Assembly (NCBI RefSeq): GCF_020405205.1
Contig: NZ_CP084469.1
Span: 3,410,001-3,474,000, forward strand
Length of the DNA stretch: 64,000 nucleotides
Source: Natrinema salinisoli
Lineage (GTDB): Archaea; Halobacteriota; Halobacteria; Halobacteriales; Natrialbaceae
Direction of reading: 5' to 3'
The notes beneath the pieces are model-generated. The model ran no database searches, had not been told where the DNA came from, and saw only the letters and a program-made list of their open reading frames with translations. The position numbers and the translations under genes were made by a program. Positions 41,634 through 47,112 of this stretch are shown here, one piece after another (within the stretch, counting starts at the first letter, position 1; every line of letters begins with the position of its first letter).

Positions 41634-41714
41634 CGCTCGGCCACGAACCTGCCGAGACCGATCCCGTATCAAACTACCATAGCGTTTATGGCCCTCCGGT
41701 TGGTCTGTCGTGAC

Positions 41715-42518
41715 ATGGCCAGTCTCAGGGACCTCGGGCTCTCGGAGTACGAGGCTCGAGCCTACCGATCGTTACTGAACACCGGCCCGACAACGGCCAA
41801 GGAACTTTCGCGGGCGAGCGACGTTCCGATGGGGCGGATCTACGACGTGCTCAACAGTATCGAACAGTACAATCTGGTCCGGAGTCAGACCGCGAGCCGG
41901 CCGAAAAAGTACGTCGCGGTCGAGCCCTCGACGGCACTCGATCGGCTGCTCGAGGACAAGAAGCGCGAACTTGAGGAGAAGGCCGACCAGTACGAGTCGA
42001 TCGTCGACGATCTGGCCGACGAGCTCGACGCGGCCGAGCCGGTCGAAGAGCAGTTCTGGACCGCCGCCGTCGGCCCCGAGGAGACGATCGACCTCCTCCT
42101 GGAACGGCTCGCGGCCGCCGACCGCGATATCGTGATGGTCTCGTCCCATCCGTCCCCCCAGTGGGACATGCAGGCCGTCAGCGAGGAGATCAACGCCCAG
42201 CTCGAGGACGCCCTCGATCGGGGCGTCTCGATCGACCTGTTGATGACCCGCGAGATGGTCGCCTCGATGTCGGAGGAGGTGGGCCGACGCTATCGAGAGA
42301 CCCTCCAACAGCGCGAGGACTTCGACGTCCGAACGCACGACGACGTGACGGGCTCGTTCAACATCATCGACGGCGTCGAGGTCTGCATTCAGGTTCCCAA
42401 CCCGCTCTCTTCGGGCGAGGCCTTCGGCATGATCGACCTGAAGGATCCGGAGTTCGCAGCGAACGTCCACGAGGAGTTCGCCCCGCGGTGGACGGAAGCG
42501 GAGCCGCTCGAGTTCTGA
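41715..42518 (+). CDS. TrmB-family transcriptional regulator
   Basis: A 267-residue intact regulator with a winged helix (LRDLGLSEYEARAYRSLLNTGPTTAKELSRASDVPMGRIYDVLNSIEQYNLV), a coiled coil (LLEDKKRELEEKADQYESIVDDLADEL) and a C-terminal phospholipase-D-like ligand domain (IVMVSSHPSPQWDMQAVSEEINAQLEDALDRGVSIDLL, GSFNIIDGVEVCIQVPNP). It is shorter than sugar-sensing TrmB and lacks that protein's C-terminal extension, so it belongs to the general TrmB-like group. The start is ATG 41715, with GTTTATG about 30 bases upstream, rather than the in-frame ATG at 41688. Confidence 0.88.
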   Translation: MASLRDLGLSEYEARAYRSLLNTGPTTAKELSRASDVPMGRIYDVLNSIEQYNLVRSQTASRPKKYVAVEPSTALDRLLEDKKRELEEKADQYESIVDDLADELDAAEPVEEQFWTAAVGPEETIDLLLERLAAADRDIVMVSSHPSPQWDMQAVSEEINAQLEDALDRGVSIDLLMTREMVASMSEEVGRRYRETLQQREDFDVRTHDDVTGSFNIIDGVEVCIQVPNPLSSGEAFGMIDLKDPEFAANVHEEFAPRWTEAEPLEF

Positions 42519-43519: not shown

Positions 43520-43620
43520 TGCCCGCATTCAGGGTAGCGGGCGATTCAACCTTTCGGAACCAGTAGGTACTGGCTCGAGGGACTGTGGGGTTCAGTACGG
43601 ACTCGAGCGAGCCGTCGTTT

Positions 43621-43659
43621 CTTTAAGTGTCTCTGGTCACAAGGTAGAGATACGAGGGA
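43621..43659 (+). repeat. 39-base TATA-containing repeat, copy 1
   Basis: Begins CTTTAAGTGTCTCTGGTCAC, continues AAGGTAGAGATACGAGGGA. It matches copies at 45103-45141 and 46146-46184 almost throughout, on the same strand. The TTTAAG at the left edge looks like an archaeal TATA box, and the conserved block reaches about the +10 position expected from it. It lies between mptA and the M50 protease. Confidence 0.85.
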
Positions 43660-43806
43660 AGACGGTCGTTCTCCAGGACTCCGATTCGGTAGTTGCGACG
43701 CTCCGCCTCTCAGCGGCGCGGACGTTCTTCCACCCGATTTTTCAGGCGGTTCAGTTCTGTCCCGGCTGTGGCACGCGACTCGAGTGATCTGCACGGCGAT
43801 CCGGTA

Positions 43807-43832
43807 ACCTGAACGGTGATCCGTTTTCAGGT
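43807..43832 (+). promoter_or_regulatory. Long inverted repeat before the M50 protease gene
   Basis: ACCTGAACGG and CCGTTTTCAGGT form a near-perfect dyad around TGAT, with two extra bases in the right arm. It ends 16 bases before the GTG at 43849, where it could be an operator, or a hairpin ending a transcript from the repeat at 43621. Confidence 0.45.
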
Positions 43833-43848
43833 CACCTAAGGCCCCGGA

Positions 43849-44997
43849 GTGACACCAGCGACTGTGCGAAGTTACACTATTACGGAAATCTGGGATATCC
43901 CGATTCGAATCAACACGTCGTTGTTGATCTTCCTCCCGATCCTCGCGTGGCTCATCGGAAGCGGGCAGCAGATCGAACTGTACGCCGGGTTCATCGACGG
44001 ACTCACCGGCGCCGGATTCGACCTCTCACGTCTCGGCGCCGAGACGACGCGGTGGCTCATCGGCATCACGGCAGCGGTCGGGCTGTTCGTGAGCGTCACG
44101 CTGCACGAACTGGGCCACTCGTGGGTCGCGCTACGATACGACATCGAGATCGAGTCGATCACCCTGTGGATCCTCGGCGGCATCGCGTCGCTGAAGACCC
44201 TGCCCAAGGAGTGGGACCGCGAGTTCTGGATCGCCATCGCCGGCCCCATCACGAGCGTCCTCGTCGCCGCCGTCTGTTACGCCGCCGTTCTCGTCGTGCC
44301 GGACTCCCTGCAGGTCACCCGGTTCGTCCTCGGGTATCTGGCGATCACGAATCTACTCCTCGCGGGATTCAACCTCCTCCCCGCGTTCCCGATGGACGGC
44401 GGGCGCATCTTCCGCGCCCTCCTGGCTCGTTCCCGTCCCTACGGGAGCGCGACGCGGATCGCGGCGCGAGTCGGCGTCCTCTTCGCGTTCCTGTTCGCTA
44501 TCGTCGGGGTTCTCAACTTCCAGCTCATTCTCCTCCTCCTCGCCTTCTTCATCTACGGCGCGGCGACCACGGAATCGCGAACCGTCCTCCTCGACGAACT
44601 GCTCGAGGGAATCACGATCGGCGACATCATGACCAGGGAGCCCGCGACGGTCTCGGCCGACGCGACGATCGAGGAGTTCGGCGACCAGCTGCTTCGAGAT
44701 CGCCACTCCGTTCACCTCGTCACGGACGCAAGCGGGGCGGTCGTCGGCGTCGTCACGCTCGAGGATCTCCGGACGGCGCGCGGGAACGACCGAGGATCGA
44801 CCCGCATCGAGGCGGTTATGCAGGACGTCCCGCGTATCGAATCGACTGCCGACGCCTTCGACACGCTCCCCGTGGTGAACCAGTCCGGGAACGTACTCGT
44901 CGAGGAGGCCGGGGAGATCGTCGGTGTCCTCTCGCAATCCGATTACGCGCACGCTATGACGATTCGACGCGGCTTTCAGAGTTCTATCGGCGCGTAG
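43849..44997 (+). CDS. M50-family site-2-type membrane protease with CBS domains
   Basis: A 382-residue intramembrane zinc metalloprotease. The active-site HELGH (86-90, in SVTLHELGHSWVALRYDIEIESI) and the third metal-ligand motif NLLPAFPMDGGRIFRALLARSR lie in about six transmembrane helices. Residues about 255-375 contain two CBS domains (GDIMTREPATVSADATIEEFGDQLL and MQDVPRIESTADAFDTLPVVNQSG), which usually bind adenine nucleotides and control activity. It should cleave membrane-anchored substrates, possibly anti-regulators. GTG 43849 is used; GTG 43864 (VRSYTITEIWDIP) is equally likely. Confidence 0.9.
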   Translation: MTPATVRSYTITEIWDIPIRINTSLLIFLPILAWLIGSGQQIELYAGFIDGLTGAGFDLSRLGAETTRWLIGITAAVGLFVSVTLHELGHSWVALRYDIEIESITLWILGGIASLKTLPKEWDREFWIAIAGPITSVLVAAVCYAAVLVVPDSLQVTRFVLGYLAITNLLLAGFNLLPAFPMDGGRIFRALLARSRPYGSATRIAARVGVLFAFLFAIVGVLNFQLILLLLAFFIYGAATTESRTVLLDELLEGITIGDIMTREPATVSADATIEEFGDQLLRDRHSVHLVTDASGAVVGVVTLEDLRTARGNDRGSTRIEAVMQDVPRIESTADAFDTLPVVNQSGNVLVEEAGEIVGVLSQSDYAHAMTIRRGFQSSIGA

Positions 44998-45102
44998 CGA
45001 ACCCGTTCGAGGGTGCGACGGATTCCGCGACGCTGAGGGTCTTCGGTTCGCGTGCCGGCCGACTTCGGGACGATCCTCTCGGCGGGTTCGGTCCCGACCG
45101 CT

Positions 45103-45141
45103 CTTTAAGTGTCTCTGGTCACAAGGTGAAGCTACGAAGGG
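45103..45141 (+). repeat. 39-base TATA-containing repeat, copy 2
   Basis: Same element as at 43621-43659, with GGTGAAGCTACGAAGGG at its right end. It ends 55 bases before the nucleotidyltransferase ATG at 45197, so here it could act as that gene's promoter with a leader of about 60 bases. Confidence 0.85.
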
Positions 45142-45196
45142 CATTCGGCACGCCGGTCTTCTCGCAGTTCCGTTTCCGACGACTCGAGCCACGGCC

Positions 45197-46117
45197 ATGT
45201 CTCCCGTTCCGAATCGCGTCCACCGGACCGTCGACGAGCACCTGACGGCGATCGAACGCGAGTACGACGTCGCGGTCGTGCTCGCGGTCGCCCGCGGGAG
45301 CCACGCCTGGGGCGCGGCGAGTCCCGACAGCGACTACGACGTCGGGTTCGTCTTCGTCCCGACCGATCTGCGCCGGTACGCCCATCTCGAGAGGCCACCC
45401 GAAACCATCGTCGCAGACCGCGGCGAGTTCGAGTACCAGGGCTGGGACGTCCGGACGTTCGCGCGCTTGCTTGCCGACTCGAACGAAGGTGCGATCGACA
45501 TGTTGCGAAGTCCGATTCGCTATCGCCTCGCGTACGACCCCGCCGACCTCGTCGACTACCTCGAGCGAACGTACAACCCGATCGACCTGTATCACACGTG
45601 GCGCGGGATCGCGACGAACAACTACCGCAAGTACGTCTCGCACCACCTGGTCCGCACCGACGATGAGATCTTCCCGATCGTCGAGGCAGACGCGGACGCG
45701 TACACCGTCGAAACGGAGGACGGAACGACGACGGTGCCGACCGACGACGACCGGTTCAGCGAGACCCAGACGAAACCGACGGTGAAGCGAAACCTGACCA
45801 TCTGTCGGGCGGCCATGTTCACGTACTACCTCCTGGAAACCGGGGAACGCGGCGCACACGAGTTACCGGCCCTCGACTTCGAGACGTTCCTGACCGAGCA
45901 AGCGCCCGCAGTCTTCGACGCCGACCGAATCGACCGCGCTCGCGGGTTGCTCGAGCGCAAGCGGGCGGGCGAGGGCGATGTCACCGTCGGCGACGCCGTA
46001 GGCCGCGAGTTCGCACACCCGCCACGAGCGATCGATCCGGACGTACACGCTCGAGCCGGGCCCGATACCGAACGGCTGGACGACTTCATCGACGAGCTGA
46101 TCGAGGCCGTCCGGTAG
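45197..46117 (+). CDS. Polymerase-beta-fold nucleotidyltransferase (COG3541-like)
   Basis: A 306-residue protein with a nucleotidyltransferase core: RGSHAWGAASPDSDYDVGFVFV carries the GS motif and the two aspartates that bind metal. YHTWRGIATNNYRKYV and KPTVKRNLTICRAAMFTYYLLETGERG follow in the helical part, as in the predicted nucleotidyltransferases of COG3541, some of which occur in RNA-repair gene clusters. The substrate is unknown. It is flanked on both sides by copies of the 39-base repeat (45103-45141 and 46146-46184). Confidence 0.85.
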   Translation: MSPVPNRVHRTVDEHLTAIEREYDVAVVLAVARGSHAWGAASPDSDYDVGFVFVPTDLRRYAHLERPPETIVADRGEFEYQGWDVRTFARLLADSNEGAIDMLRSPIRYRLAYDPADLVDYLERTYNPIDLYHTWRGIATNNYRKYVSHHLVRTDDEIFPIVEADADAYTVETEDGTTTVPTDDDRFSETQTKPTVKRNLTICRAAMFTYYLLETGERGAHELPALDFETFLTEQAPAVFDADRIDRARGLLERKRAGEGDVTVGDAVGREFAHPPRAIDPDVHARAGPDTERLDDFIDELIEAVR

Positions 46118-46145
46118 CCCGCGCCGCCCGTCGACCCGCGTCGCC

Positions 46146-46184
46146 GTTTAAGTGCTTCTGGTCACAAGGTAGAGCTACGAAGGG
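46146..46184 (+). repeat. 39-base TATA-containing repeat, copy 3
   Basis: Begins GTTTAAGTGCTTCTGGTCAC and ends AAGGTAGAGCTACGAAGGG. It differs from copies 1 and 2 at only a few positions. It lies 158 bases before the RNA polymerase epsilon gene, downstream of the nucleotidyltransferase. Confidence 0.85.
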
Positions 46185-46341
46185 CTTTTGCGGAGTCGAT
46201 CACACCGAGCAGAGACCGGTAGCCCCGGGTTTCCTCGGAGCTCACCGACAGCACCATACCTGTTAGAACGGCTGTCAGTCCAGTTAATCGGCCACTGAAC
46301 GGAGCGAGCCTTTTTCACTCTCCCCCTCTCAGCGACAACTG

Positions 46342-47112
46342 ATGCAAGACGACGGTGCCGATCCTGGTCCAGCGTCCGAGCGAGCGTCGGCCGTCGGAGA
46401 CGGTATCGAACCCGATTCCGACGGTGAGCGGCGTCTCGAGGCCCGGCCCGGGTCCGGGTCGCTCTCGCGGGCGGACGTCCAGCGCGATTCGACAGTCCGC
46501 CGGTGGGGCGTCGTCACGCCGAGCGCGACGGTCATCGGTCGCGCGGACTCGCCCGAGGCGGACCTCTCCGAGAGCGTGCGCCGCCTCCACGACGAACAGC
46601 ACGCGGCGACGCCCGGCTACAGCGAGCGGGCCCACCACCTCGACCGGCTCCGGACGACGCAGGCGCTGTGTAACGCCCTCGAGGTGACGCCGTGGCAGCG
46701 AGACCTCGCGCTGGGTGTCATGGACGAGATCGATCTCACCGAGTTCGGCAGCCAGCGGGCGATCCCGAAGGTGGCGCTGGTGGTGATCCGCCACGTCGTC
46801 GACGTCGACCGCCAGCAGTACTTCGGGCTCGACGATATCGATGCGCAGGAACTCTCGGCCGATCGGATGGAGGACCTGTTCGCCCGGTATCGGGCCCACG
46901 ACATCACCGACGAGGAGGGGTTCAAGCGGCTCGCGGCCGAGTACGGGCTGGACACGACGAGTCTGAACCGACTTCGTCGCGTCCTCAAGTCACAACTCGA
47001 CGACGAACTGCCGGCCTACGGGCGCAACCCGTATCGGGATCCGAACCTCCCGGACGTGACCGAGTCGGACACCAGCGCCGCCGATGCGGCCGCCACTGGG
47101 ACCGAGAGCTGA
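46342..47112 (+). CDS. rpoeps: Haloarchaeal DNA-directed RNA polymerase subunit epsilon
   Basis: A 256-residue protein resembling the haloarchaea-specific protein annotated as RNA polymerase subunit epsilon. Recognisable parts are DVQRDSTVRRWGVVTPSATVIGRADSPEADLSESVRRLHDEQH, RTTQALCNALEVTPWQRDLALGVMDEIDLTEFGSQRAIPKVALVVIRHVVDVDR and the C-terminal AEYGLDTTSLNRLRRVLKSQL. The middle also resembles a cyclin-like helical repeat, as in TFB-like proteins. Residues 1-45 and the C-terminal tail are disordered and acidic. Membership in the polymerase is family knowledge; its role is little studied. Confidence 0.75.
   Translation: MQDDGADPGPASERASAVGDGIEPDSDGERRLEARPGSGSLSRADVQRDSTVRRWGVVTPSATVIGRADSPEADLSESVRRLHDEQHAATPGYSERAHHLDRLRTTQALCNALEVTPWQRDLALGVMDEIDLTEFGSQRAIPKVALVVIRHVVDVDRQQYFGLDDIDAQELSADRMEDLFARYRAHDITDEEGFKRLAAEYGLDTTSLNRLRRVLKSQLDDELPAYGRNPYRDPNLPDVTESDTSAADAAATGTES

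Follow-up and report, generated by a model that had tools for sequence, protein, structure and literature searches.

A multi-copy promoter-like element of haloarchaea whose occurrence, location and sequence class follow RNA polymerase epsilon

A short intergenic element of haloarchaea goes with epsilon, the RNA polymerase subunit encoded by rpoeps: the two are coupled in whether the element is present, in where it lies and in which sequence class it has. The element is apparently a previously undescribed, multi-copy signal for the start of transcription; a literature search with its 10-mer GGTCACAAGG and haloarchaea found no paper. We think it probable that the element is a dedicated haloarchaeal core promoter, the recognition or control of which depends on epsilon. 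Promoter activity, the start site, direct action by epsilon and the sign of regulation are what we infer, from sequence. Epsilon was found in the RNA polymerase of Halobacterium four decades ago and is reported to associate with the polymerase (PMC8305020). The epsilon-containing polymerase transcribes native templates efficiently, whereas polymerase without epsilon does not, and a 2021 review called the relevance of epsilon 'enigmatic' (PMC8305020). A candidate DNA target makes the role of epsilon testable. If the proposal is true, haloarchaea own a class of promoters served by its own polymerase subunit, and for any species the members of the regulon could be read from the sequence.

The window, a 64 kb stretch of the Natrinema salinisoli genome (G000), contains three copies of the element, all of class I (defined below) and all on the plus strand. 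Copy 1 (43619–43661) is upstream of the gene of an M50 peptidase with CBS domains (43849–44997, plus strand; Pfam 7.6e-25 and 2.8e-14). Copy 2 (45101–45143) is upstream of the gene of an RlaP-family nucleotidyltransferase (PF10127; 45197–46117, plus strand; Pfam 3.3e-29). These two genes are the candidate targets of the respective copies. Copy 3 (46145–46186) is upstream of rpoeps (46342–47112, plus strand), which encodes the 256-residue epsilon, as identified by the annotation of relatives, alignment, and a model with fold search. The copies were matched with R1, a sequence-only profile of 43 copies from many genomes, window copy 1 being among the 43; the E values are 2.8e-15, 6.8e-16 and 3.7e-15 for copies 1 to 3. 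Exactly these three matches, at E ~1e-15, are found in the window, and the next best has E 0.26. The first-pass annotation was thus right to report three near-identical plus-strand copies at these places. All three contain the 14-mer TCTGGTCACAAGGT without mismatch; the 4.7 Mb genome has only five exact occurrences, each in a copy of the element, and one degenerate copy besides. A search of the consensus beyond the window, as had been suggested, gave the two further good copies in this genome, one upstream of prs, which encodes ribose-phosphate pyrophosphokinase, and one upstream of the gene of a GNAT acetyltransferase, and class-wide occurrence elsewhere. At 41688–42518 of the window, a gene for a TrmB-type regulator with DUF7436 adjoins mptA, a pairing kept in several genera.

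Positions in the element are numbered from the first T of TTTAAGT, which is position 1 and lies at 43622, 45104 and 46147 in the window; TTTAAGTG occupies 43622–43629, 45104–45111 and 46147–46154. In an ungapped alignment of 121 copies, the conserved part spans about −2 to 39; next to nothing is conserved upstream of −10 or past about +52. The 39-base conserved block described by the first-pass annotation exists but is slightly longer, ~42 bp. The consensus is close to TTTAAGTGCYTCTGGTCACAAGGTRRAGMTAYGAMGGG; after the TTTAAGT box come a spacer and a start region, both of them conserved. The box is TATA-like and invariant or nearly so. The 8 bases 5′ of the box are pyrimidine-rich, with 34–37% purine versus 50% farther upstream. 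This is the opposite of the purine-rich BRE; that is, the element is without a BRE. The best available estimate puts the transcription start at position 28, the last G of TAGAG, give or take one or two bases, because the viral HF2 repeats (see below) share the box and the start region and have measured starts. For the window, the predicted starts are ~43649, ~45131 and ~46174. Looser and weaker downstream motifs recur in both classes of element: TTCT at about +40 to +55 (near +46) and AGCG at about +60 to +75 (near +71). Their recurrence suggests that the first ~45 transcribed bases, as predicted, are also constrained. A coding reading of the unit was rejected because the copies do not share a start codon, position 25 being either A or G.

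The element is widespread. A 38-base pattern is found in 107 of 125 genomes of the window's family, with zero in every row for the reversed-pattern control, and R1 detects the element in 166 genomes of 39 genera among 392 genomes of the order. In the other families examined the recurrent neighbour is rpoeps, and the element lies mainly upstream of or around it; across families, the usual place is 90–190 bp upstream. The element is also at the plasmid-borne rpoeps of Halococcus and Halorussus, and named plasmid records label relatives of rpoeps as 'DNA-directed RNA polymerase subunit epsilon'. RlaP was considered as the partner and rejected. It is found in 96 of the 125 family genomes, and several element-bearing genomes either have no RlaP or have it elsewhere, at a distance from the element. 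An earlier suggestion of a tie to the M50 or nucleotidyltransferase genes is therefore not supported; the telling neighbour is the epsilon gene.

The element (R1 plus R2, the profile of the second class) and a strong rpoeps match are concordant in 390 of the 392 genomes, which are not independent of one another: 179 have both and 211 have neither. Put otherwise, the element is found in 179 of the 180 sampled haloarchaeal genomes with epsilon. The sole element-only genome, G262, is 87% complete and in 210 contigs, and the sole rpoeps-only genome, G309, has a divergent epsilon. A Fisher test on these counts takes no account of phylogeny, and its value is not to be read as a probability. Concordance also holds inside families and can be followed within two genera. 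In genus g11, G030 and G032 have both and G029 and G033 have neither; in genus g42, G161 and G183 have both and G137 has neither. R2 was built from copies found by looking upstream of rpoeps, which makes its share of the agreement partly one of construction, although R2 afterwards found copies elsewhere too; the R1 share is free of this. Some agreement would also be expected because the element is itself, as proposed, a promoter of rpoeps. The co-occurrence suggests epsilon as the protein working at the signal.

A distant epsilon-like family is present in 18 genomes (G144, G257, G401 and 15 others), mostly with E of 1e-7 to 1e-22, and none of these genomes, which have only the distant match, carries the element. 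The family is partly plasmid-borne, as on plasmids of Halobacterium hubeiense, Halarchaeum and Natrinema thermotolerans. In a genome without the element, a weak epsilon-like match interrupted by a stop (G031:C1:1221367–1221591; E 1.6e-4) is perhaps a decaying copy.

Genomes that are R1-negative and rpoeps-positive often have a second class of element upstream of rpoeps, close to TTTAAGTGCTTCTCGCGACAACGGTTCGTAGTGAGG, and modelled as profile R2. Class II differs from class I in the start region, which reads TAGTGAGG in class II versus TAGATACGA-like in class I. The classes switch with the type of epsilon. In the epsilon tree, the 18 class II epsilons that were examined group without exception in a single divergent clade (support 0.74), to which the epsilon of genus g69 also belongs. 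Genera g2, g7 and g11 belong to the window's own family; their epsilon is in the class II clade, and their elements are class II, not class I. Strong full-length R2 matches are confined to genomes with a class II epsilon, and the R2 matches in class I genomes are mostly half-length, to the shared left part. Copies remote from rpoeps in g2, g7 and families f7 and f8 are class II too. Had rpoeps merely been transferred together with its promoter, remote copies would have stayed as they were. Genus g69 has no element at its rpoeps locus, yet class II-like copies lie elsewhere in the two genomes inspected, G344 and G334; it follows that the link is more than adjacency. These observations argue for a link in trans. 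The two matched pairs of factor and site constitute a built-in test of specificity.

Side by side with these matched classes, the main competing explanation can be considered. The element could be the operator plus promoter of another DNA-binding regulator, epsilon being only the best-conserved target and inherited with the regulon. An overlapping operator would yield a conserved spacer and start, some copies read GGTGA and so hold the partial palindrome TCAC-AAG-GTGA, and many rpoeps genes also have their own TATA-like box close to the start codon. Against such a regulator speak a site class that tracks the epsilon clade and genus g69, which retains remote elements though its rpoeps is without one, and we regard it as rather unlikely. 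Class-wide conservation running from the TATA-like box through the expected start, together with the class switch, supports the first-pass suggestion of shared recognition by a specific factor.

Class II elements have further neighbours. In two f7 genomes (L198:1749, L203:1912) the element is convergent toward the 3′ end of a gyrA-type gene, where an antisense RNA is possible. In genus g2 (L187:1656–3592 and L189:1712–3634; L188 is similar), class II elements lie around the gene of an exported protein that weakly matches M73/camelysin near its N-terminus (PF12389, E 4.8e-5).

Genomes typically have 1–15 copies, which are intergenic and often in tandem arrays. In relatives, as many as nine copies stand in tandem at the locus represented in the window (mptA, M50, RlaP, rpoeps), and their flanks have diverged. 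Local duplication and divergence fits such arrays better than independent insertion, the reading that the first-pass annotation had drawn from the differing flanks. That the element is a short mobile repeat or an insertion-sequence end, as was also raised at the outset, is hardly credible. Three Halococcus plasmids do have an identical 40-base copy in different flanks, as expected for such a repeat; against this, loci and orientation are constant across genera, the copies are in tandem order, and the phage and viral collections contain no match. Other plasmid settings were seen. On two Halococcus dombrowskii plasmids (L045:2329–2405, L046:2326–2403) the element is ~100 bp from a divergent tRNA-Met gene. 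Plasmids of Halococcus dombrowskii and Halorussus halophilus (L207, L208) carry rpoeps with elements on both sides, which indicates that factor and sites can travel together.

The elements have a fixed direction. By approximate counts made with a simple gene caller, 121 of the 254 units examined are followed by another same-strand unit, mostly ~110–150 bp away; a same-strand gene follows 87 units at a median of 155 bp, and a convergent gene follows 32. The tandem units, and the copies that face a convergent gene, cannot be leaders of the next gene. This orientation toward genes or further units, and a distance from TATA-like box to start region that suits a promoter, speak against a non-promoter site, such as one for DNA architecture or segregation. 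Arrays are present on several replicons, plasmids included, as such a site might require, but the element is in only 8 plasmid records and absent from most of the collection. We judge a site of this kind very improbable.

The same arrangement recalls small RNAs. The elements might serve as promoters for small regulatory RNAs that form a multi-copy family, with epsilon playing no part in recognition. Tandem units of ~120–145 bp, orphan copies facing convergent genes and the conserved motifs of the transcribed part are what such a family would have. No conserved RNA structure accompanies them: hairpins in the transcribed part are not more stable than those of shuffled sequences, pairing within it is not in excess of permuted controls, and the Rfam 15 covariance models have no match at or near the elements. 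The agreement with rpoeps in nearly every genome and the matched classes would also be left unexplained; we hold the explanation to be improbable. Small RNAs themselves are compatible with an epsilon-dependent promoter. The first-pass idea of a family of short transcripts is thus supported in part, by the tandem units and the convergent-facing copies.

What is epsilon? The protein has no Pfam, NCBIfam or PDB-sequence match, and no epsilon-like proteins were found in phage records and viral contigs. A model of the whole protein (pLDDT 48.6) was too poor and was set aside, and a domain model of residues 76–222, made from 11 close sequences (pLDDT 69.5, pTM 0.60), was used instead. The domain model is helical, and when folds were compared the top 23 rows were all TFIIB-family cyclin repeats. 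The best is Brf2 (Z 7.6, rmsd 3.5, 91 residues), archaeal TFB 1d3u has Z 5.7, and the first unrelated fold also has 5.7. Across TFIIB/Brf2 chains, Z is 5.7–7.6 and rmsd 3.5–6.0 against a model of pLDDT 69.5, and the Foldseek E of 0.45 is not significant. Profile comparison (hhalign) with the six TFBs of the same genome gave a probability of 0.4%, i.e., no similarity. The domain model is only suggestive of a TFIIB-like conserved domain with a cyclin-repeat fold.

An epsilon-dependent core promoter would work as follows. The TTTAAGT box would take TBP. The spacer (TCTGGTCACAAGG) and the start region of either class would be read by epsilon, or by the epsilon-containing polymerase, and this reading would replace the usual BRE contact. 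Every unit would start a transcript near the conserved TAG, and ~45 nt of the transcribed part would be under constraint. Feedback on rpoeps, positive or negative, would come from the copies that precede this gene, and the remaining copies would drive short non-coding RNAs or leaders, as well as a small regulon, comprising RlaP, the M50 protease, prs and the GNAT gene in the window's genome. A more specific proposal, which we advance tentatively, is that epsilon is a TFIIB-like promoter-specificity factor that reads a BRE-less core promoter via spacer and start region, controls its own gene via the copies in tandem and, by co-evolution with its sites, has split into two classes. Epsilon might then be the archaeal counterpart of an alternative sigma factor or Brf2.

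How does the element compare with known promoters? The nearest proven ones are the class I intergenic repeats of HF2, repeated promoters with measured activity and start sites, in which TTTAAGT begins at −26 and the start is a G in TAGAGTGAGG (PMC8707807). The HF2 repeats function in Hfx. volcanii without viral factors (PMC8707807), which we count against the epsilon explanation. Both they and the element are repeated, intergenic and conserved beyond the usual core promoter, and both have the TTTAAGT box and a TAG start region at promoter distance, with an offset of 1–2 bp. The closest likeness is to the element of genus g7, TTTAAGTCATT...TTAGAGTGAGGAG. The spacers differ, CGTCT in HF2 being 1–2 bp shorter than the ACAAGG or ACAACGG of the element. 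The central 12-mer of HF2, CGTCTNNTAGAG (the gamma motif), is absent from the element, and the HF2 repeats, which are viral, have an alpha box and a BRE, whereas the element has no BRE. The HF2 repeats give no significant match to the R2 profile.

The ordinary haloarchaeal core promoter, with BRE, TATA box and start, depends on TBP and TFB. Its distance between TATA-like box and start region is that of the element. In contrast, the 5′ flank of the element is pyrimidine-rich instead of purine-rich, the spacer and start are conserved to ~42 bp, and the element is present only with epsilon, bar one genome. Promoter classes with a dedicated initiation factor include those of alternative sigma factors and the Pol III type 3 promoters served by Brf2. 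The resemblance of epsilon to Brf2/TFIIB rests on a moderate-confidence model, and homology to sigma or Brf2 is not implied. The working analogy is one of organization, in which one accessory factor serves a small, diagnostic set of promoters that includes the promoter of the factor's own gene.
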